From Clostridiaceae bacterium (GTDB lineage Bacteria; Bacillota; Clostridia; Tissierellales; Sporanaerobacteraceae), in NCBI GenBank assembly GCA_019391515.1, contig JAHXQP010000030.1:248001-312000 (forward strand): DNA of 64,000 bases, in the 5' to 3' direction. A program made the position numbers and the translations under genes. The notes under the pieces are model-generated. The model saw only the letters and a list, made by a program, of their open reading frames with translations, was not told where the DNA came from and searched no databases. Below, in pieces: positions 48,623-63,357 of this stretch; within the stretch, counting starts at the first letter, position 1; every line of letters starts with the position of its first letter.

Positions 48623-48905
48623 AAAACTCTCGCCTCTAGCATTACACTAGAGAACGAGAGTATCACTCCGTGGTCCCATCTCTATTTATTGATACTTCAC
48701 AGTATCAACCTTATCGAGTACGACAATCATATGTTTATACTCTAGCACTGTAACGGGTGCAGGTAATCCGAAGACAGTCTACTACCTAATAGGTTTCGAT
48801 GTCTAGCTCAGAGATGTGTTCAAAATACATTCAAATGCCCCTCTCACCAAACGGGAACTCTCTGTAAAAGAAATGTATCTTTACTATTTCTCATCGAAGC
48901 TTTTA
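48623..48905 (-). promoter_or_regulatory. T-box leader, predicted histidine specifier (CAC)
   Basis: On the minus strand the leader has a Stem I closed by CGATG/CATCG (from 48898), an AGTA motif in the specifier loop, and the T-box antiterminator sequence ATGGGACCACGG (48679-48668). A strong terminator follows. In the specifier loop the sequence is TTTTGAACACATCTCT; the codon after GAA is CAC (48819-48817), decoding histidine. AAC (Asn) is the main alternative register. When uncharged tRNA-His binds, the antiterminator should form and the transporter be expressed. Confidence 0.85.
48625..48657 (-). terminator. T-box regulatory terminator
   Basis: The arms ACTCTCG-CTCTAG and CTAGAG-CGAGAGT pair around a 7-nt loop and are followed by TTTTTT on the minus strand. 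It lies 14 nt downstream of the T-box sequence and about 45 nt before the binding-protein gene. Confidence 0.88.
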
Positions 48906-48931
48906 TTTTGATTTGTTATGATAATACTTTA

Positions 48932-49012: not shown

Positions 49013-49196
49013 CTAAAATAATCTTACTAAAATACTAGAAACAACTATTGGTGCCATAGTAATAATAAAAATATACACAATAAAACATCCTATTGGTAAG
49101 CGGTAATTAAGATAGGTTGCTCTAAAATATCTTAATTCTATTATTAATCCATAATCTGTCACTATTCTGGAAAATAAAATAATTATTAAGCCTATA
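49013..49196 (-). pseudogene. Remnant hydrophobic frame without a start
   Basis: A minus frame of about 60 codons encodes two hydrophobic stretches (GLIIILFSRIVTDYG, IGCFIVYIFIITMAPIVV) and ends in a stop at 49013. No ATG with a ribosome site is present and its 5' end runs into the terminator of the upstream lipoprotein gene. It may be the 3' end of a lost membrane protein gene, or chance. Confidence 0.3.
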
Positions 49197-49238
49197 AAAA
49201 AGTAGTAGATTATTGAAATTTAATCTACTACTTTTTTA
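49197..49238 (-). terminator. Terminator of the lipoprotein gene
   Basis: The perfect 17-bp arms AAAAAAGTAGTAGATTA and TAATCTACTACTTTTTT flank an 8-nt loop and overlap the stop codon. Confidence 0.88.
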
Positions 49239-49674
49239 TATCAATATCAATTTTTCCTTTTGCTCTTCTACCTAAAAATTTAATTCTATTTGTTCCTTCT
49301 TCAAGTATAATCTCTTTACTTCCCCTTTCTGTACCATTTAAAACATTGATAATTTTATCATCTGGCGTTACTACTACTACTTTAAAATCCCCTTTATCTA
49401 TTTTAGAATCAAAATGAAATGTAACTTTACTTTCTTTATCAACTCTAATTTTATATACAGTATCTTTCCCTGTGAAAGAAGCAAATTCTAAATTTATTTT
49501 ATCATCTTCTGCTGTTCCATTTTTACTACGATAAGTATAACTATTTGTTTTTTTAACTATTTCATTCTCATCATCAAATATACTACTCTGATAATCAGTA
49601 GGATTACATCCAACAATAGTCATGCTTACTATAATTATTAATATAAACAATATCAGTCTACTATATTTTTTCAT
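49228..49674 (-). CDS. Hypothetical lipoprotein
   Basis: This 148-residue protein has a lipoprotein signal (SMTIVGCNPT, Cys23) and a beta-rich mature domain with many Lys, Asp and Val residues (TFHFDSKIDKGDFKVVVVTP, then IDIDIKK at the end). The pattern suggests an immunoglobulin-like or jelly-roll fold outside the membrane. I do not recognise a family. It is a single-gene unit with a strong terminator. Confidence 0.7.
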   Translation of the reverse strand: MKKYSRLILFILIIIVSMTIVGCNPTDYQSSIFDDENEIVKKTNSYTYRSKNGTAEDDKINLEFASFTGKDTVYKIRVDKESKVTFHFDSKIDKGDFKVVVVTPDDKIINVLNGTERGSKEIILEEGTNRIKFLGRRAKGKIDIDIKK

Positions 49675-51249: not shown

Positions 51250-51612
51250 TCATTTTTTTAGGTTGCCATTTTTATCAAACCTTTTCCGTAAGGCTATTTC
51301 AGTTGGTATTATTGATAACATCATTACTGCTAATTGAATATATATTATCCATGTAAATATTTTTTCATAATTTTTTCTAAATAATAACATAACAATTAAT
51401 GAAACAGTTAACAAAATAATTCCACTATAAAACCAAACTTTAGCATGATAAGCATGAGCAAATCCCCATGTTTCTTTGCTTTTCATAGACATTTTCGTTC
51501 TGTATCCATAGACCCAATTTATACTTTGTGGTGGATACTTCTTCCACAATGCACCAAATCCCAACATTGTAATTGGAATTAAGGAGTTCATAATTATTAA
51601 AAAAATATACAT
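51250..51612 (-). CDS. SdpI/YhfL-family membrane protein
   Basis: This 120-residue protein has three membrane segments and the family signature WKKYPPQSINWVYGYRTKMSMKSKETWGFAH. SdpI confers immunity to a Bacillus cannibalism toxin, but most short homologues have no known role. An extended -10 (TGATATAAT, 51672-51664) lies about 50 nt upstream, identical to the promoters in the repeat elements described below. Confidence 0.78.
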   Translation of the reverse strand: MYIFLIIMNSLIPITMLGFGALWKKYPPQSINWVYGYRTKMSMKSKETWGFAHAYHAKVWFYSGIILLTVSLIVMLLFRKNYEKIFTWIIYIQLAVMMLSIIPTEIALRKRFDKNGNLKK

Positions 51613-51663
51613 TTTAATCTCTCCCTAGAAAAACACTTAAAAATATAATTTATTCTATATAAT

Positions 51664-51672
51664 ATTATATCA
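51664..51672 (-). promoter_or_regulatory. Extended -10 promoter of the SdpI-like gene (repeat-related)
   Basis: TGATATAAT on the minus strand. The plus-strand context TATTATATCATTTAAT is identical over 16 nt to the promoter end of the dispersed repeat at 57741-57756. Confidence 0.55.
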
Positions 51673-51757
51673 TTTAATCATGATTTGTTTCGTTTTTTTG
51701 TAGTTTTCCCAGTATTACCCTAGAAATTGTTATGAACTTCCTTTACTACATTGTTTA

Positions 51758-52027
51758 TTATAAACTGTCTACATAATCTTTTGCTTCTTTTAATTTCATT
51801 CCAGTAACATCTCTTAACTTTTTTATTGCCTTGACTTTTTTATTTTCCTCAACAAGTTTTATTAACTCATCTCTCAACTCATCATTTATATGCCCCTTAG
51901 ATAGTTCAGGTATTTCAAAATGCATAATGATTCTATTTAATTTTGATTCTATTCGTTGTTGATTACTTATTAATATATTAATGCTAGTAAGTAAAATAGT
52001 TATTAAAATTACATATATATATTTCAT
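51758..52027 (-). CDS. Membrane-anchored protein with ribosomal L7/L12 C-terminal-like domain
   Basis: This 89-residue protein has one N-terminal membrane segment (about 3-22) and ends in KVKAIKKLRDVTGMKLKEAK, which closely resembles the C-terminal domain of ribosomal protein L7/L12. That domain recruits GTPase translation factors on the ribosome; here it would face the cytoplasm beside the membrane. I chose ATG 52027, after GGAGGCTGAAA. Similar short proteins occur in other Firmicutes; role unknown. Confidence 0.7.
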   Translation of the reverse strand: MKYIYVILITILLTSINILISNQQRIESKLNRIIMHFEIPELSKGHINDELRDELIKLVEENKKVKAIKKLRDVTGMKLKEAKDYVDSL

Positions 52028-52062
52028 ATTTTCAGCCTCCATTACTAGTTGATTTTATAATA

Positions 52063-52091
52063 AATATATCATTTTGTTTTTCAATTATCAA
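52063..52091 (-). promoter_or_regulatory. Promoter of the L7/L12-like gene
   Basis: On the minus strand TTGATA, 17-nt spacer and TATATT (each 5 of 6 consensus matches). The -35 lies within the decayed reading frame next to it. Confidence 0.6.
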
Positions 52092-52200
52092 ACAAATATA
52101 ATTCTCTATTCCATGAAGACACACCTGAACCCAAAATTGCAGCACTAATATATACTTTCTCAGAATAAAACCTATACTTTTTTAAACCTCTCTTAGCAAG
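52081..52200 (-). pseudogene. Decayed copy of the 73-residue membrane protein gene
   Basis: The minus frame contains VYISAAILGSGVSSWN, nearly identical to YISAAIFGSGVSSWD of the gene at 53944-54165; at DNA level about 40 nt match with one or two changes (52112-52155 against 54061-54104). The flanking parts differ and no start is usable. It is a remnant of a former duplicate. Confidence 0.7.
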
Positions 52201-52206
52201 AATTCT

Positions 52207-52248
52207 CCCATCTTCTATAAGTGGTAGTAGTTCACAATGGAAGATGGG
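52207..52248 (+). promoter_or_regulatory. Hairpin before the XRE gene start
   Basis: CCCATCTTC and GAAGATGGG form a perfect 9-bp stem with a 24-nt loop and end 6 nt before the XRE ATG. The fold would cover the weak ribosome site. Confidence 0.4.
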
Positions 52249-52253
52249 TAAAG

Positions 52254-52496
52254 ATGAAGAATAATATTAAATATCTTCGTAAACAAATGGGCTTAAGGCA
52301 AGAAGATGTTGCAAAAAAACTAGGAGTTACCCGTCAAACAATTAATGCAATAGAGAATGACAAGTATAACCCTACTTTAGAATTAGCCATGAAACTTGCA
52401 AAATTATTTAAAAATACTGCACCCCATGGAGAATATATGGATTACGAGAAAATACAAGATATACAACTCTTCCATCATAATTTAGCATATATCTGA
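52254..52496 (+). CDS. XRE-family regulator with an aberrant C-terminus
   Basis: The first 52 or so residues are a complete XRE helix-turn-helix (LRKQMGLRQEDVAKKLGVTRQTINAIENDKYNPTLELAMKLAKLF). Relatives normally end about 10-15 residues later with a SVEDIF(I/F)-type tail. Here the frame instead continues through KNTAPHGEYMDYEKIQDIQ, which is antisense to the end of the Nudix gene. This suggests a deletion joined the 3' ends of two convergent genes. DNA binding may survive. Total about 80 residues from ATG 52254. Confidence 0.75.
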   Translation: MKNNIKYLRKQMGLRQEDVAKKLGVTRQTINAIENDKYNPTLELAMKLAKLFKNTAPHGEYMDYEKIQDIQLFHHNLAYI

Positions 52497-52887
52497 CTTT
52501 ATCTTTCGTAAATTCTTCATCAATTACATCTAATATTTTTTCTCTATCAAACCAATTTACTTCAAGGCTCTCGTCACTTGTTGTTAATTCACCTGAAATT
52601 GCTTTACCAGTAAATCCAAAACTTACAATTGTTCCAATGGGACTAATCCCATCAGGCTGAAACATCTCCCCTATATTTGAATGAACTGCTATTAATTTCC
52701 CAATTTCTATAATTATCCCCGTTTCTTCTTTTATCTCTCTTTTTAATCCATTGATGAGATTTTCACCTGTTTCAATTTGCCCTCCAGGGATCTCCCATCC
52801 CCTATCAGGACTTTTCACTAGGAGTATTTTTTCCTCATCATTTTCTATTAATCCACTAACAGCAACAATATGTACTGGATAATTCAT
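52408..52887 (-). CDS. Nudix hydrolase
   Basis: This 159-residue enzyme cleaves a nucleoside-diphosphate-linked compound. The Nudix box is intact: GGQIETGENLINGLKREIKEETGI, with the REIKEE metal-binding helix. Its last 30 codons overlap the XRE gene on the other strand (89 nt). Its own ending (YDGRVVYLVFSRNPYILHG) looks normal, so the deletion event probably removed mostly XRE sequence. Substrate not predictable. Confidence 0.85.
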   Translation of the reverse strand: MNYPVHIVAVSGLIENDEEKILLVKSPDRGWEIPGGQIETGENLINGLKREIKEETGIIIEIGKLIAVHSNIGEMFQPDGISPIGTIVSFGFTGKAISGELTTSDESLEVNWFDREKILDVIDEEFTKDKVRYMLNYDGRVVYLVFSRNPYILHGVQYF

Positions 52888-52964
52888 AATACCATCCTCC
52901 TAATCCGTAATATAGAAATACTGAATCTGAACTTCAAATATAAACTATAATCATAATCTTATAA

Positions 52965-53048
52965 TATGGTTCCCCATTGAAAATTAAGATCGGACTGAAA
53001 TAATAAACAAAAGCAGTAGGTTTTACCATAACAAATCCACTGCTTTTA
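52965..53048 (-). repeat. Dispersed repeat element, copy A (partial)
   Basis: The right part holds a hairpin (AAAAGCAGT/ACTGCTTTT, 53009-53047) whose loop shares ATAACAAATCC with copy B. The left part has GGTTCCCCAT, comparable to GGTTCACCAT of copy D. The promoter end is missing. It lies between the Nudix gene and a HepT-like fragment. Confidence 0.6.
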
Positions 53049-53068
53049 TAAAATTAATATATTAGTTT

Positions 53069-53254
53069 TTAAATAAAGTTATCATTGATAGAAATAATGA
53101 ATTTTTTTATATCAACTAGATTGTTTCTTAAAACACTATATATTATCCTTTTATCCATTTTTAGGTGCTCATGAAATAGTACATTTCTAAGGCCTACTAT
53201 TATAGCAACGATATCCCAAATCATGTAACCTCTAAGTAGCATTGCTAGGATATA
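53069..53254 (-). pseudogene. HepT-like (DUF86) gene fragment
   Basis: The minus frame of 61 codons reads GYMIWDIVAIIVGLRNVLFHEH and then NNLVDIKKFIISIND. The R-x4-H catalytic motif (RNVLFH) and its setting match the HepT/DUF86 RNase toxin family. The N-terminal half is missing, with an in-frame stop at 53255-53257, and no MntA antitoxin gene is present. It is a remnant of a HepT/MntA toxin-antitoxin pair. Confidence 0.65.
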
Positions 53255-53304
53255 TTATTTCAATTCCATTGTTATATATTTCATATTTAATGGCAGTAGT
53301 TCAC

Positions 53305-53862
53305 CTATTCTCCCCTTAATAAAAAATCATTCTTGATAAATCCAATGTAATCCTTTAATAATTCTATATCATTTATTTTAGAAATTTTCTTCCGATTTTT
53401 TATCACTAGCATAATTACTATTATCTCGAAAATAGTTAAATAACAATCCTTTAAGTCAAAAACAAAAAAGCCCTTTAATAATATATAGTCTAAGCTTCCA
53501 TTCCAAAAAATTTTATCTATTAATGAACATATAATACCTGAAAATAAAAATACTTTTATGATATCAAGAATTGAATTTTTTGAGATTTTAGCTTCTAAAT
53601 ATTTAAAGGCATAGTAACTAAGAAATAAAACCAATATCACCATAATTATATGAAAAATCCTGCCCCAACCAAGATTAAATAATGAATTTATATATGAATA
53701 ATTGTCATTTAAAATTGGCATAAAATATAGTATGTTTTTTATTATTGGAATCTTTACACCATAATAATTTTTGACTATTATCTTTATTCCTTGCTCTATA
53801 GCAACTAATAGTAAAATAATAATTTTGGTGATTTTATACTTATTTTTTACTAGCTTCTTCAT
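53305..53862 (-). CDS. Signal peptidase II (LspA)-like membrane protein
   Basis: This 185-residue protein has four membrane segments and the LspA elements: EQGIKIIVK near the N-terminus, SGIICSLIDKIFW (first catalytic Asp) and FDLKDCYLTIFEI (second catalytic Asp). The canonical NxxDR and FNxAD are altered to SLIDK and FDLKD. LspA cleaves lipoprotein signal peptides. This is probably a divergent paralogue, with the housekeeping lspA elsewhere. Promoter and terminator not obvious. Confidence 0.7.
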   Translation of the reverse strand: MKKLVKNKYKITKIIILLLVAIEQGIKIIVKNYYGVKIPIIKNILYFMPILNDNYSYINSLFNLGWGRIFHIIMVILVLFLSYYAFKYLEAKISKNSILDIIKVFLFSGIICSLIDKIFWNGSLDYILLKGFFVFDLKDCYLTIFEIIVIMLVIKNRKKISKINDIELLKDYIGFIKNDFLLRGE

Positions 53863-53943
53863 GCTTACCTCCTATTTTTGCATGATATTCTACTTATATA
53901 TGTAATTCTTCACTTCTGGACATTCATTATATACTGAATCACT

Positions 53944-54165
53944 TTATTTTTCCCTTTCTGCCATTATAAGATAAACTATTCCCACTCCTAATGAAATTAC
54001 ACTTAAGATTATAAGTGTGCTACCAGTATAATCAAGCATGGCATTAAATAATCCACCATCCCATGAAGACACACCTGAACCAAAAATTGCAGCACTAATA
54101 TACCTTATGGAAAATAGAATTGTTGCCATAAAGCAAAAAGATACTCCTGCACCTCGTTTGTTCAT
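53944..54165 (-). CDS. Small membrane protein, two or three TM segments
   Basis: This 73-residue protein starts MNKRGAGVSFCFMATILF and has the conserved RYISAAIFGSGVSSWDGGLF stretch between two hydrophobic segments. Similar short proteins are common in Firmicutes without known function. An AAAGGAGAC site precedes the ATG. A decayed second copy lies at 52081-52200. Confidence 0.7.
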   Translation of the reverse strand: MNKRGAGVSFCFMATILFSIRYISAAIFGSGVSSWDGGLFNAMLDYTGSTLIILSVISLGVGIVYLIMAEREK

Positions 54166-54223
54166 TAGAAAAGTCTCCTTTCCTTTATAATAAAACTATT
54201 TATATCACATAATTCTTGCTGAT

Positions 54224-56503
54224 TTAAGCCTTGAAGTTATAAATAGGCTTGATTATATCCAATATATCGACTGTATCTTCTATATTACTTATTATTTCTT
54301 CAATAGGTTTATATGCCATTGGGGCTTCATCCAATGTTGATTCTTTTACTGATGTTGTATAAACCTCTTCCATAGATTTCTGAAATTCTTCTAAGCTAAT
54401 ATTATCTCTCGCTTGTGCTCTGCTCATAATCCTACCAGCTCCATGTGGTGCACTATAGTTCCAGTCTGAATTGCCTTTACCTGTTGCTAAAATAGATCCA
54501 TCACGCATATTAATCGGAATTAATACTTTTTCTCCTTCATAAGCTGATATTGCACCTTTTCTAATTATATTGTCCTTAAAATCAATATAGTTATGAACTG
54601 TATGAAAGTATTCAAAATCATCCAGTGATTTATTAAACATTCTTTGTAGTATAATCTCTGCCATTGTTTCCCTGTTTAATTTTGCATACTCTTGACATAT
54701 GTTCATGTCGTGCAAATACTTGTCCCTAAATTCATTAGTTAGAAAACATAATTCTTTTGGATAGTTTGGTTGCAAATCATCGTATTCCTTTTTTAATTCT
54801 TTCAATACTTTTTGTATTTCTTTTCTTCTGCCTTGTTCTTTATATTTTTTTATAATTTCTTCTCTTTTTATGAAATAGTCCCCTTTTCCACTGCATAAAT
54901 CAACTGCTAAATTTTGATAAAATTCTGCAACTTGTTTACCTAGATTCCTACTTCCAGAATGGATCACAAGATATTTGTTATTATTTTTATCTATATTGAT
55001 TTCTAGAAAGTGGTTACCCCCACCAAGTGTTCCTATGCTTCTTTCTAATCTCTTTGTACCTTTTAAACTTCTATAACAATATAATTCTTGTAACTTTGGA
55101 TATCGGATAATTCTACCTTCATGTGTATTAAATCCTGCTGGAATATACTGATTAATTATACTATCTAATTTTTTCAAGTCAATTTCTATTTGTCCTAAAT
55201 TAACAACTTCCATTCCACAATTATGAACGAACACGCCTGCCGATAAGGCAAAATTATGATATTTATCTACACTTAAGCAATATACATCTTCTTTATAATC
55301 CAGTTTTTCAACAGATATAACTTTATGATTATTATATAATACTTTATTCCAATTTTCTTTATCTATTACTTCTATAATTTTTTTAAATCCATATTCTTTT
55401 ATAGTTTTACAAGCAATGTCATAAGTAGGATAATTATAAAATTTTTTTCTATAAGAGTTAAAGGTATCTGCATTAACATCTTTACCATCTTTTTTAATAG
55501 AAAGTATCACATTTCTTATCCTTCCTAATTTTTGTTTAACTATCATTGTTTCATCTGAATTTTTATTACTAAAAAATTCGCTTCCTCTTTCTGCATTCTT
55601 TTGAACGACTTTTTTAAAGTCCTCCTTATTTTCATTCATGTAATTTGTTATATTCTGTATTGCTATTTCTTTTTTTTTATTATAATATTTATCATCATAA
55701 AATCCTTTTTCTTGTAAGACTTGTAGTCTTTTTTGCTTAAATTCAGGAGATCTTAGTCTTGTTACTTGGTTTGAACTTTTTCCATGAATTGTTGAATGCT
55801 CATCAATTGTTAATAATTTTAAATTTTCAGGTGTGTTATCAAATTGATTTCCATTTTTATGATGAACAACATAACCTTCTGGTATATTACCAAAATACTC
55901 TTCTGCTACAATTCTATGTGTTGGTTGAGTTTTCATATTTTTATTAGGTTGTAGCAAAGATTCATATCCATCCCTAGTCTGATAAGTTCTATACAAGGGC
56001 ATTAAACTATCTTTATATTTTAAATCTTTTGCTTGTTTGTACTTTCCATTTCTTAACATAATCTCATGATCAGGCGTACAAATAATCTCCTCACCACCGC
56101 TTATTGTAACTTTTACTAATTCTGCATTCCTTATTGTTTTTAATGCTTTTGCTTTCCCATTTACAATTTTTTTATCTTTATTGACGGAATAAACCCAAAA
56201 CTCCTTACCTTCTTCATATAATTGTTCTAATGTCTTTTGAGTCCCATTTAATAAGGGTATTTTTGTATCACCAACAAAACATCCTATATCTACCCCAACT
56301 AAATTCGGAATTACTTTATCTCCTAAATCAGCTGTGAATCCTATTACACAACCAGCACCTTTGTGACAATCTGGCATAATTCTTACTTTGGCATTTTCCA
56401 CAAAATCCTGGTTAAGCAAGTTGGTTATTTGGGATATTGTTTCACTCTCAATATTATTGGTAAATACCTTAGCCATACTGTATTTTCCCTGCAATTCAAT
56501 CAT
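54224..56503 (-). CDS. rtcB: RtcB-family RNA ligase interrupted by an intein
   Basis: RtcB joins 2',3'-cyclic phosphate or 3'-phosphate RNA ends to 5'-OH ends using GTP and Mn2+. The precursor has about 759 residues; removing the 354-residue intein leaves about 405, the usual size for the E. coli-type enzyme. Extein motifs are MPDCHKGAGCVIG, GVDIG/CGMEVV, GGGNHFLEI, HSGSRNLGK and SAPHGAGRIMSR, which holds the guanylylated His. I chose ATG 56503, 6 nt after GGTG; ATG 56515 is an alternative. No archease, rtcA or sigma54 regulator is next to it. Splicing is required for activity. Confidence 0.92.
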   Translation of the reverse strand: MIELQGKYSMAKVFTNNIESETISQITNLLNQDFVENAKVRIMPDCHKGAGCVIGFTADLGDKVIPNLVGVDIGCFVGDTKIPLLNGTQKTLEQLYEEGKEFWVYSVNKDKKIVNGKAKALKTIRNAELVKVTISGGEEIICTPDHEIMLRNGKYKQAKDLKYKDSLMPLYRTYQTRDGYESLLQPNKNMKTQPTHRIVAEEYFGNIPEGYVVHHKNGNQFDNTPENLKLLTIDEHSTIHGKSSNQVTRLRSPEFKQKRLQVLQEKGFYDDKYYNKKKEIAIQNITNYMNENKEDFKKVVQKNAERGSEFFSNKNSDETMIVKQKLGRIRNVILSIKKDGKDVNADTFNSYRKKFYNYPTYDIACKTIKEYGFKKIIEVIDKENWNKVLYNNHKVISVEKLDYKEDVYCLSVDKYHNFALSAGVFVHNCGMEVVNLGQIEIDLKKLDSIINQYIPAGFNTHEGRIIRYPKLQELYCYRSLKGTKRLERSIGTLGGGNHFLEINIDKNNNKYLVIHSGSRNLGKQVAEFYQNLAVDLCSGKGDYFIKREEIIKKYKEQGRRKEIQKVLKELKKEYDDLQPNYPKELCFLTNEFRDKYLHDMNICQEYAKLNRETMAEIILQRMFNKSLDDFEYFHTVHNYIDFKDNIIRKGAISAYEGEKVLIPINMRDGSILATGKGNSDWNYSAPHGAGRIMSRAQARDNISLEEFQKSMEEVYTTSVKESTLDEAPMAYKPIEEIISNIEDTVDILDIIKPIYNFKA
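55220..56281 (-). mobile_element. Intein with HNH homing endonuclease inside rtcB
   Basis: The 354-residue intein begins at Cys75 (CFVGDTKIPLLNG) and ends VFVHN before Cys429 of the C-extein. Block B is ICTPDHEI (TxxH) and block F is EDVYCLSVDKYHNFAL, so the splicing elements look complete. In the middle, YVVHHKNGNQFDNTPENLKL is an HNH endonuclease motif. The insertion point GVDIG/CGM is the catalytic metal-binding Cys of RtcB, a site known to carry inteins in archaeal RtcB. Confidence 0.9.
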
Positions 56504-56621
56504 AATTTTCACCATCCCTATTTAGTTAATATTTATTATACTTTTGAAAGTATAATAAATATTATATGCCGTTACTGAAAACTTATTTGATGAGCCATCT
56601 ATTAATCCTATTTAATACAAA

Positions 56622-57699: not shown

Positions 57700-57734
57700 T
57701 TATTATAAAACCTCCTACTTCATATAATTTTTCT

Positions 57735-57890
57735 TACACGTATTATATCATTTAATTCTAGCCTATAATGTGATTCACCATATTAATTTAACTCGCAAAA
57801 TAAATAGAATATATCTAATAAAATAACAGATTAACTAAGTATATAAATAAAACTAGTAGATTTTTATTATAACAAATCCACTAGTTTTAT
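57735..57890 (-). repeat. Dispersed repeat element, copy B
   Basis: The element holds TATTATATCATTTAATTCTA, then GATTCACCATATTAATTT, and ends in the hairpin ATAAAACTAGT/ACTAGTTTTAT (57847-57890). On the minus strand it runs from the hairpin (81 nt after the methyltransferase) to an extended -10 (57750-57742) before the next gene. It lacks about 40 nt found in copies D and E. Confidence 0.75.
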
Positions 57891-57970
57891 TTATTTCGTA
57901 TAATCTGGGATAACACCTTTATAAATATGTCCACTCCCGTTTAAAATAAGTTTTTCCCTATAAATACAGA

Positions 57971-60312: not shown

Positions 60313-60391
60313 ATAGCCATCTCCTGATAGTATTTTTAAAAACTTCTTACAAATTCTTTTAGATATTTACAATTTAATACGATATATTTTT

Positions 60392-60609
60392 TACTTATAC
60401 ATATTATATCATTCAATTTTAGTTTATGATAACCCCTTAAACATTATCCTATAACACATAGCTTGTCCACTATTTATAGTATGGTTCAATGGTTCACCAT
60501 ATTAATTTGACTGACAAAACAAATAGGATGTGTTTGATTGTGGATATTCCTAATATATAAGGTATAAGTAAAACCAGTAGACTCTTATCATGCAAACCTG
60601 CTGGTTTTA
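60392..60609 (-). repeat. Dispersed repeat element, copy D
   Basis: This is a full-length copy of about 218 nt: ACTTATACATATTATATCAT, a central part with GGTTCACCATATTAATTTGA, ATATAAGGTATAAGTAAAAC and the hairpin AAAACCAG/CTGGTTTT (60570-60609). On the minus strand the hairpin follows the lipoprotein gene and the extended -10 TGATATAAT precedes the next gene. Confidence 0.8.
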
Positions 60610-60645
60610 TAAAATTGCTATAGCTGTTTCTTCAACTTATTATAC

Positions 60646-63129: not shown

Positions 63130-63156
63130 ATGTTTTCCCCCTGTTACTTCGTCATA

Positions 63157-63357
63157 TTTTACTTATACGTATTATACCATTTAATTCTAGTTTATGGTGT
63201 CCCCCTGGACATTAGTATATATGAAATACAGCTTATCCTACTTATGATACGGTTCACCGCACTAGTTCTATTAGCAAAACTTATTTAGTAATAGATATTT
63301 ATAAGATATAAGGTATAAATAAAACCAGTAAACTCTTCATGTAAACTTACTGGTTTA
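63157..63357 (-). repeat. Dispersed repeat element, copy E
   Basis: This full-length copy of about 200 nt has ACTTATACGTATTATACCAT, GGTTCACCGCACTAGTTCTA, ATATAAGGTATAAATAAAAC and the hairpin AAACCAGTAA/TTACTGGTTT (63322-63356). It aligns with copy D end to end. On the minus strand the hairpin follows the Fic gene and the extended -10 precedes the GNAT gene. Confidence 0.8.

Follow-up and report, generated by a model that had tools for sequence, protein, structure and literature searches.

The only rtcB gene found in the genome of a Clostridiaceae bacterium is interrupted by an intein, and the reading preferred here, at a probability of about 90%, is that a class 1 HNH intein entered the codon for the metal-binding cysteine of this single-copy, accessory gene, in a host that shares its order with an intein-bearing Tissierella genome. 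The gene lies in a 64,000-nucleotide stretch of DNA (here referred to as the window) from a genome of 2.84 Mb in 32 contigs, with a completeness of 99.5%; a search of these contigs revealed no second rtcB. Judging from the residues, Cys1 would form the N-terminal thioester, aided by Thr69 and His72; Cys+1, later the metal-binding cysteine of RtcB, would take over the N-extein; and Asn354 would cyclise, a subsequent bond shift giving a scarless ligase of approximately 46 kDa. By cutting rtcB alleles that lack the intein at the conserved G-V-D-I-G/C-G-M codons, the HNH domain would presumably allow the intein to be copied in (homing).

Structure of the interrupted rtcB gene

The RtcB precursor is encoded by a 763-aa ORF without internal stop on the minus strand (54224..56515, −), with codon 5 (56503) as the other possible start. 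Its N-extein (56282..56515, −) ends in V-G-V-D-I-G and its C-extein (54227..55219, −) begins with C-G-M, and the two share 92.7% and 96.4% nucleotide identity, respectively, with the uninterrupted gene of the congener G001. Between them lies an intein of 354 residues (55220..56281, −), Cys1 to Asn354, delimited by Pfam and NCBIfam profiles and by the junction residues. It spans Cys79-Asn432 in the longest frame, or Cys75-Asn428 when counted from the Met at codon 5, and the boundaries proposed in the initial annotation, namely Cys75 to Asn428 at GVDIG/CGM, proved exact, with both profile collections and the empty site of G001 in agreement.

The host protein is an RtcB, as indicated by a PF01139 score of 201.2 bits (cut-off 27) and by the Cys at the G-x-D-I-x-C position (GVDIG/CGM). 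Pfam matches RtcB above cut-off in two stretches of the 763-aa frame, and the C-extein carries the further RtcB motifs GGGNH, HSGSR, and HGAGR. The residue after the intein Asn is a Cys, the first of the C-extein and a predicted metal ligand, and the intein is thus inserted directly before it; we take this Cys+1 position to be the metal-binding cysteine of RtcB. The ligase may reasonably be expected not to bind metal before splicing, although in the precursor Cys1 of the intein occupies the same chain position. Predicted masses are 46.4 kDa for the ligase from codon 5 and 46.9 kDa from codon 1, 41.4 kDa for the intein, and 88.3 kDa for the precursor from codon 1.

Splicing and endonuclease residues of the intein

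The N-terminal splicing region (residues 1-98; 55988..56281, −) is recognised by the intein_Nterm profile, has high-confidence Hint-fold strands in the predicted model, and holds Cys1, Thr69, and His72. It is followed by an HNH endonuclease motif (residues 121-163; 55793..55921, −), which scores 54.8 bits against Pfam HNH_3, well over the family cut-off of 24.8, and by a C-terminal splicing region (residues 317-354; 55220..55333, −), which matches the intein_Cterm profile and contains Cys335 at position F:4, His342, and His353-Asn354. Searches with the whole 763-aa frame gave 100.1 bits for Pfam Intein_splicing (cut-off 35.8, residues 86-432) and 53.6 bits for HNH_3 (cut-off 24.8, residues 199-241), and the NCBIfam models TIGR01445 intein_Nterm (79-153) and TIGR01443 intein_Cterm (410-433) both exceeded their cut-offs. 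No LAGLIDADG endonuclease, the type of the two long archaeal RtcB inteins tested, was matched in the intein by Pfam at E up to 10. Two relatives of the intein, L083 and L132, fall below the HNH_3 cut-off, at 19.3 and 23.4 bits.

All splicing residues are kept, namely Cys1, Thr69-x-x-His72, His342 in block F, His353-Asn354, and Cys+1. His140, His141, Asn149, and His166 of the HNH part are kept as well. The initial annotation had described splicing blocks and HNH motif as intact, and as far as can be read from the sequence both appear so. Class 1 inteins are defined in the passages seen of PMC4031507 by Cys/Ser at position 1, Thr at B:7, His at B:10, a C-terminal Asn, and Cys/Ser/Thr at +1; Cys1, Thr69, His72, His353-Asn354, and Cys+1 of the present intein correspond to this pattern. 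Assignment to class 3, suggested by Cys335 at F:4, was rejected, for that class combines Cys at F:4 with a position 1 devoid of Cys/Ser, and Cys1 is present here. The predicted model has a mean pLDDT of 76, with the splicing part mostly around 90, and matches solved inteins, the Mtu RecA intein being the best (E 4.5e-7).

A segment of approximately 62 residues between the endonuclease motif and the C-terminal splicing region (residues 245-306; 55364..55549, −) is predicted to be helical at a pLDDT of about 40-70, and alignment places it as missing from the Tissierella copy. In the matching region of four relatives (L083, L084, L085, and L132) a CxxC...H pattern occurs, which by eye resembles a zinc finger, and the segment in the window's intein is without cysteine. 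No match to the segment was obtained in Pfam at E up to 10, in the fetched loci, or in phages, and in a search of the order with E up to 1, matches appeared in 97 of 249 genomes, its own included, the best value apart from its own being 8.3e-4; these matches are taken as noise. The segment may have a DNA-binding role, and we infer that the endonuclease has swapped its DNA-binding part.

The cysteine at F:4 is not itself new, because Cys is reported in the available passages of PMC4031507 as the second commonest residue there in inteins generally. Among 28 non-RtcB relatives, three of them read by eye, 27 have Asp and one has Cys at this position. Cys335 would nevertheless place three cysteines in one active site, together with Cys1 and Cys+1, and a class 3 DnaB intein is known to be redox-switched through its cysteine at F:4, according to the part of PMC6195587 consulted. 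On these grounds the intein could conceivably act as a post-translational switch on RNA repair, in which oxidation or metal binding would hold splicing and the ligase would be armed only under reducing conditions, a notion that is considered very unlikely.

Presence of rtcB and of the empty site in close relatives

In G001, rtcB is a single 411-aa frame without insert, about 96% identical to the window's extein over 408 columns (protein 95.6%), and nothing in its DNA separates the two junction codons, i.e., the site is precisely empty. Around the junction, 74 nt are identical between the two genomes, which in DNA that is approximately 96% identical is too little evidence for a co-conversion tract. 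The congener G002 has a distant RtcB only, and no RtcB was found in three further family members (G003-G005, of which G005 is 88% complete), so that rtcB is regarded as an accessory gene here. In a sample of the class, the C-extein was matched in 87 of 391 genomes, and a frame of more than 500 aa occurred only in the genome of the window.

With a gene that is dispensable in the family, as the lack of a match in G003-G005 implies, the intein might be a relic that splices poorly, so that RtcB is not made. This is judged improbable, since every splicing residue is kept, the frame is open across 763 codons, and the extein still shares 95.6% identity with the uninterrupted protein of G001.

HNH-type inteins at the RtcB site

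Certain scans that used a single intein sequence found nothing, and a three-row alignment of the inteins of the window, G240, and G775 then gave matches. With the intein alone as query, matches came from 11 of the order's 249 genomes and from 19 of 398 genomes in a phylum sample; the splicing region and HNH motif occurred together only in the window and G240 in the former and in the window and G775 in the latter. The remaining matches were partial, covering the N-terminal splicing region in G282, G716, G750, and G950 and the HNH part in the others. The three-row alignment retrieved 50 genome loci and 80 viral loci that were kept. All 50 genome loci were examined, and eight have RtcB as host, interrupted at G-V-D-[IL]-[GA]/C: Tissierella (L082, taken as G240), Thioploca (L083 and L099), Betaproteobacteria (L084), Anaerolinea (L085), Bacillota (L086, taken as G775), Thiotrichaceae (L107), and a Hyellaceae cyanobacterium (L112). 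Three of these are mini-inteins, of 172 (L099), 155 (L107), and 182 (L112) residues. On the viral side, the host gene was examined for 30 of the 80 loci (L132-L160 and L167), and one is an RtcB (L132, GTDIN/C). Most other genome loci have the intein at GQGNFG/C, which we take to be a GyrA site; many such inteins, from bacteria as well as archaea, lie among L088-L126 and have a common splicing domain, those checked being 141-521 residues long. The window's intein thus belongs to a bacterial and viral HNH family at the RtcB site.

The inteins of the window and Tissierella are 72% identical and the exteins 64-70%; for the window and L083 the values are 60% for the intein and 34-36% for the exteins; and for the window and L086 they are 65% over the first 100 intein residues and 30% for the N-extein. 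The extein evidence for L086 amounts to approximately 70 residues, and its contig, whose name gives a coverage of about 2, stops within the intein.

An intein-like insert of 316 residues was also observed at the same codon in an RtcB of the gut phage MT835481.1 (L010 6001-8160), which is related to that of the window; it ends in Gly-Asn, and Pfam at E up to 10 finds RtcB only.

Intein and extein phylogenies

Of the examined loci with a host gene other than RtcB, the first intein tree used 20 of 42 from genomes and eight of 29 from viruses (L132, an RtcB, being the thirtieth); from the second, L010, L127, and L128 were dropped as long branches. Extein trees and tests used 26 of the 49 extein rows. 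On the intein tree, the window groups with Tissierella (98/90) and next with L086 (98/88), and the three remain together when the long rows are omitted (98/86.9). The set of HNH RtcB inteins requires two changes on this tree, against a shuffle mean of 9.2. In the best tree the ten are split by L135, a viral locus outside RtcB, and the tests do not reject their union in one clade (p-AU 0.371, 0.171).

The extein tree is different: the window pairs with G001 (100/100), Tissierella lies inside an otherwise intein-free group (99/99), and L086 groups with Thioploca-type exteins. Extein data reject a clade of the window, G001, L082, and L086 (p-AU 2.1e-6), one of the window, G001, and L082 (p-AU 0.012), and one of the window, L082, and L086 (9.4e-104), the last being a weak form of the test as it leaves G001 outside. 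Conversely, intein data reject the placement of L086 with the Thioploca-type set (p-AU 0.000125). For nine complete taxa, a set that omits L086, each data set conflicts with the tree of the other, the extein tree being rejected by the intein data (p-AU 0.0079) and the intein tree by the extein data (0.0021). Since these rejections agree with the identities of the window to L086 and L083, it is concluded that the intein moved between RtcB subfamilies, and movement among bacteria is supported by the sequences at hand.

Alternatively, the intein may be old in these RtcB genes and inherited, with G001 and others having lost it through replacement by an intein-free allele. The similar identities of inteins (72%) and exteins (64-70%) between the window and Tissierella fit such inheritance, and the saturation of synonymous sites in the intein means that entry need not be recent. 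However, the Tissierella gene lies among intein-free genes (99/99) and a clade of the window, G001, and L082 is rejected (0.012), so that several losses would be needed, and L086 attests to movement between RtcB subfamilies; the inheritance scenario is therefore held to be doubtful, and entry of a class 1 HNH intein into an intein-free rtcB remains preferred. How recently this took place is a separate matter. Third-position identity is 60% in the intein versus 29-45% in the extein pieces, a difference that could suggest recent entry, but the codons shared at identical residues (124 of 202 in the intein, expected 122.4; 82 of 178 in the extein, expected 81.8) equal the expectation from codon usage. 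Recency is thus not supported, because synonymous sites are saturated.

Relation to archaeal RtcB inteins

The initial annotation had pointed out that this insertion point is shared with archaeal RtcB, had contrasted the HNH endonuclease of the present intein with the LAGLIDADG enzymes of many archaeal inteins, and had raised the question of transfer, to be addressed with separate trees of intein and extein. The shared insertion point was borne out: Cys+1 of the window's RtcB corresponds to Cys98 of Pyrococcus horikoshii RtcB, described as a splice junction in the portion of PMC4150793 seen, and four archaeal loci, one in a Nanoarchaeia and three in Thermoplasmatota genomes, have inteins at G-[FY]-D-I-N/C. 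Two of these inteins are 133 residues long and two, of 465 and 469 residues, contain LAGLIDADG_3; the contrast in endonuclease holds for both long ones, in which Pfam found no HNH. RtcB occurs in 237 of 243 Thermoplasmatota genomes, with at least three interrupted frames. The rtcB of the Nanoarchaeia locus (L231, with a LAGLIDADG intein) may be broken, since stops occur in frame upstream of the last 28 residues of its N-extein.

Descent of the bacterial intein from archaeal ones at this codon would account for the identical insertion point, and the tests do not reject trees that hold all RtcB-site inteins together (p-AU 0.201 when the phage row is included and 0.235 when it is dropped). Nonetheless, such an origin appears extremely unlikely, as both long archaeal inteins carry LAGLIDADG_3 and lack HNH; all four archaeal inteins have Asp at F:4 and a Ser-Asn end, whereas all nine bacterial and viral HNH-family RtcB inteins with known C-terminus (L083 by eye; L086, which is without C-terminus, stands outside the count) have Cys at F:4 and a His-Asn end; the two sets lie at opposite ends of a very long branch (100/100 in the tree without the three long rows); and apart from its own members, the HNH set is closest to inteins of GyrA, viral, and other genes. 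The separate trees thus point to horizontal movement among bacteria and a viral contig, and transfer from archaea, although looked for, is not supported.

Genomic surroundings of rtcB

Downstream of rtcB in the window, a pair of 55-nt direct repeats, 91% identical, encloses a segment of approximately 1.95 kb (52098-54102) with HTH, NUDIX, and signal-peptidase-II-like genes; the segment is absent at the matching place in G001 and in G278, a genome of another family. A locus of the latter (L071, G278:C9:74500-81500) has pieces that are 93-98% identical to window positions 49167-49339, 51266-52152, and 54048-54695; it has only a 3' part of rtcB, with an in-frame stop, adjoining an ORF that by eye resembles a transposase. 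Dispersed repeats, 60-89% alike, occur at 53021-53068, 57711-57902, 60386-60629, and 63140-63344, the last three spaced by about 2.7 kb among small accessory genes. Similar DNA is found near rtcB in G001, and Rfam gave no match at the repeat positions. A perfect 17-bp hairpin (56527-56564), also seen in G001, precedes the first rtcB ATG by about a dozen bases; the 131-nt stretch that holds it has a z of -2.46, and it is possibly the terminator of the gene upstream of rtcB. Further away, a T-box leader (48647-48906, −; Rfam 94.9, gathering cut-off 93) lies upstream of genes that by eye resemble an amino-acid ABC transporter.

Comparison with known systems

RtcB proteins with inteins are already known, because NCBI models for them exist (NF052663, NF038162); in the present case, an empty site in a close relative and signs of spread between distant bacteria are visible as well. 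In the titles and abstracts searched, with most subscription journals outside the search, the P. horikoshii case was found and no bacterial RtcB intein; inteins of Thiomargarita are covered in PMC4853749, the available passages of which do not mention RtcB. A pair of genomes in one genus with and without the intein, in a single-copy RNA ligase, makes its cost, the control of splicing, and homing directly testable. Furthermore, one codon of RtcB has been entered by different inteins, namely the bacterial HNH type, the archaeal LAGLIDADG type, and the unclassified gut-phage insert, which fits the known preference of inteins for invariant active sites.

Among the NCBIfam models, the window's protein matches NF052663 (RtcB_rel_intein2) best, with 389.9 bits over intein and extein, far under the cut-off of 1050, so that it is not counted as a member; the same model is the best match of L083, L084, and L107 (673-761 bits, likewise below 1050), and the window's extein represents a different RtcB subfamily. 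Archaeal RtcB inteins, such as that of P. horikoshii and those of NF038162 (RtcB_rel_intein), share with the window's intein the insertion point, residues of the class 1 type, and Cys+1, but differ in LAGLIDADG in the two long ones tested, Asp at F:4, the Ser-Asn end, and a distant position in the tree. Lastly, the HNH inteins of GyrA and viruses (L088-L126, L133-L149) resemble the window's intein in a related splicing domain, a CF.GDTKI start, and an HN end, yet they reside in other host proteins and mostly have Ser at +1 (26 of 28 checked) and Asp at F:4 (27 of 28).
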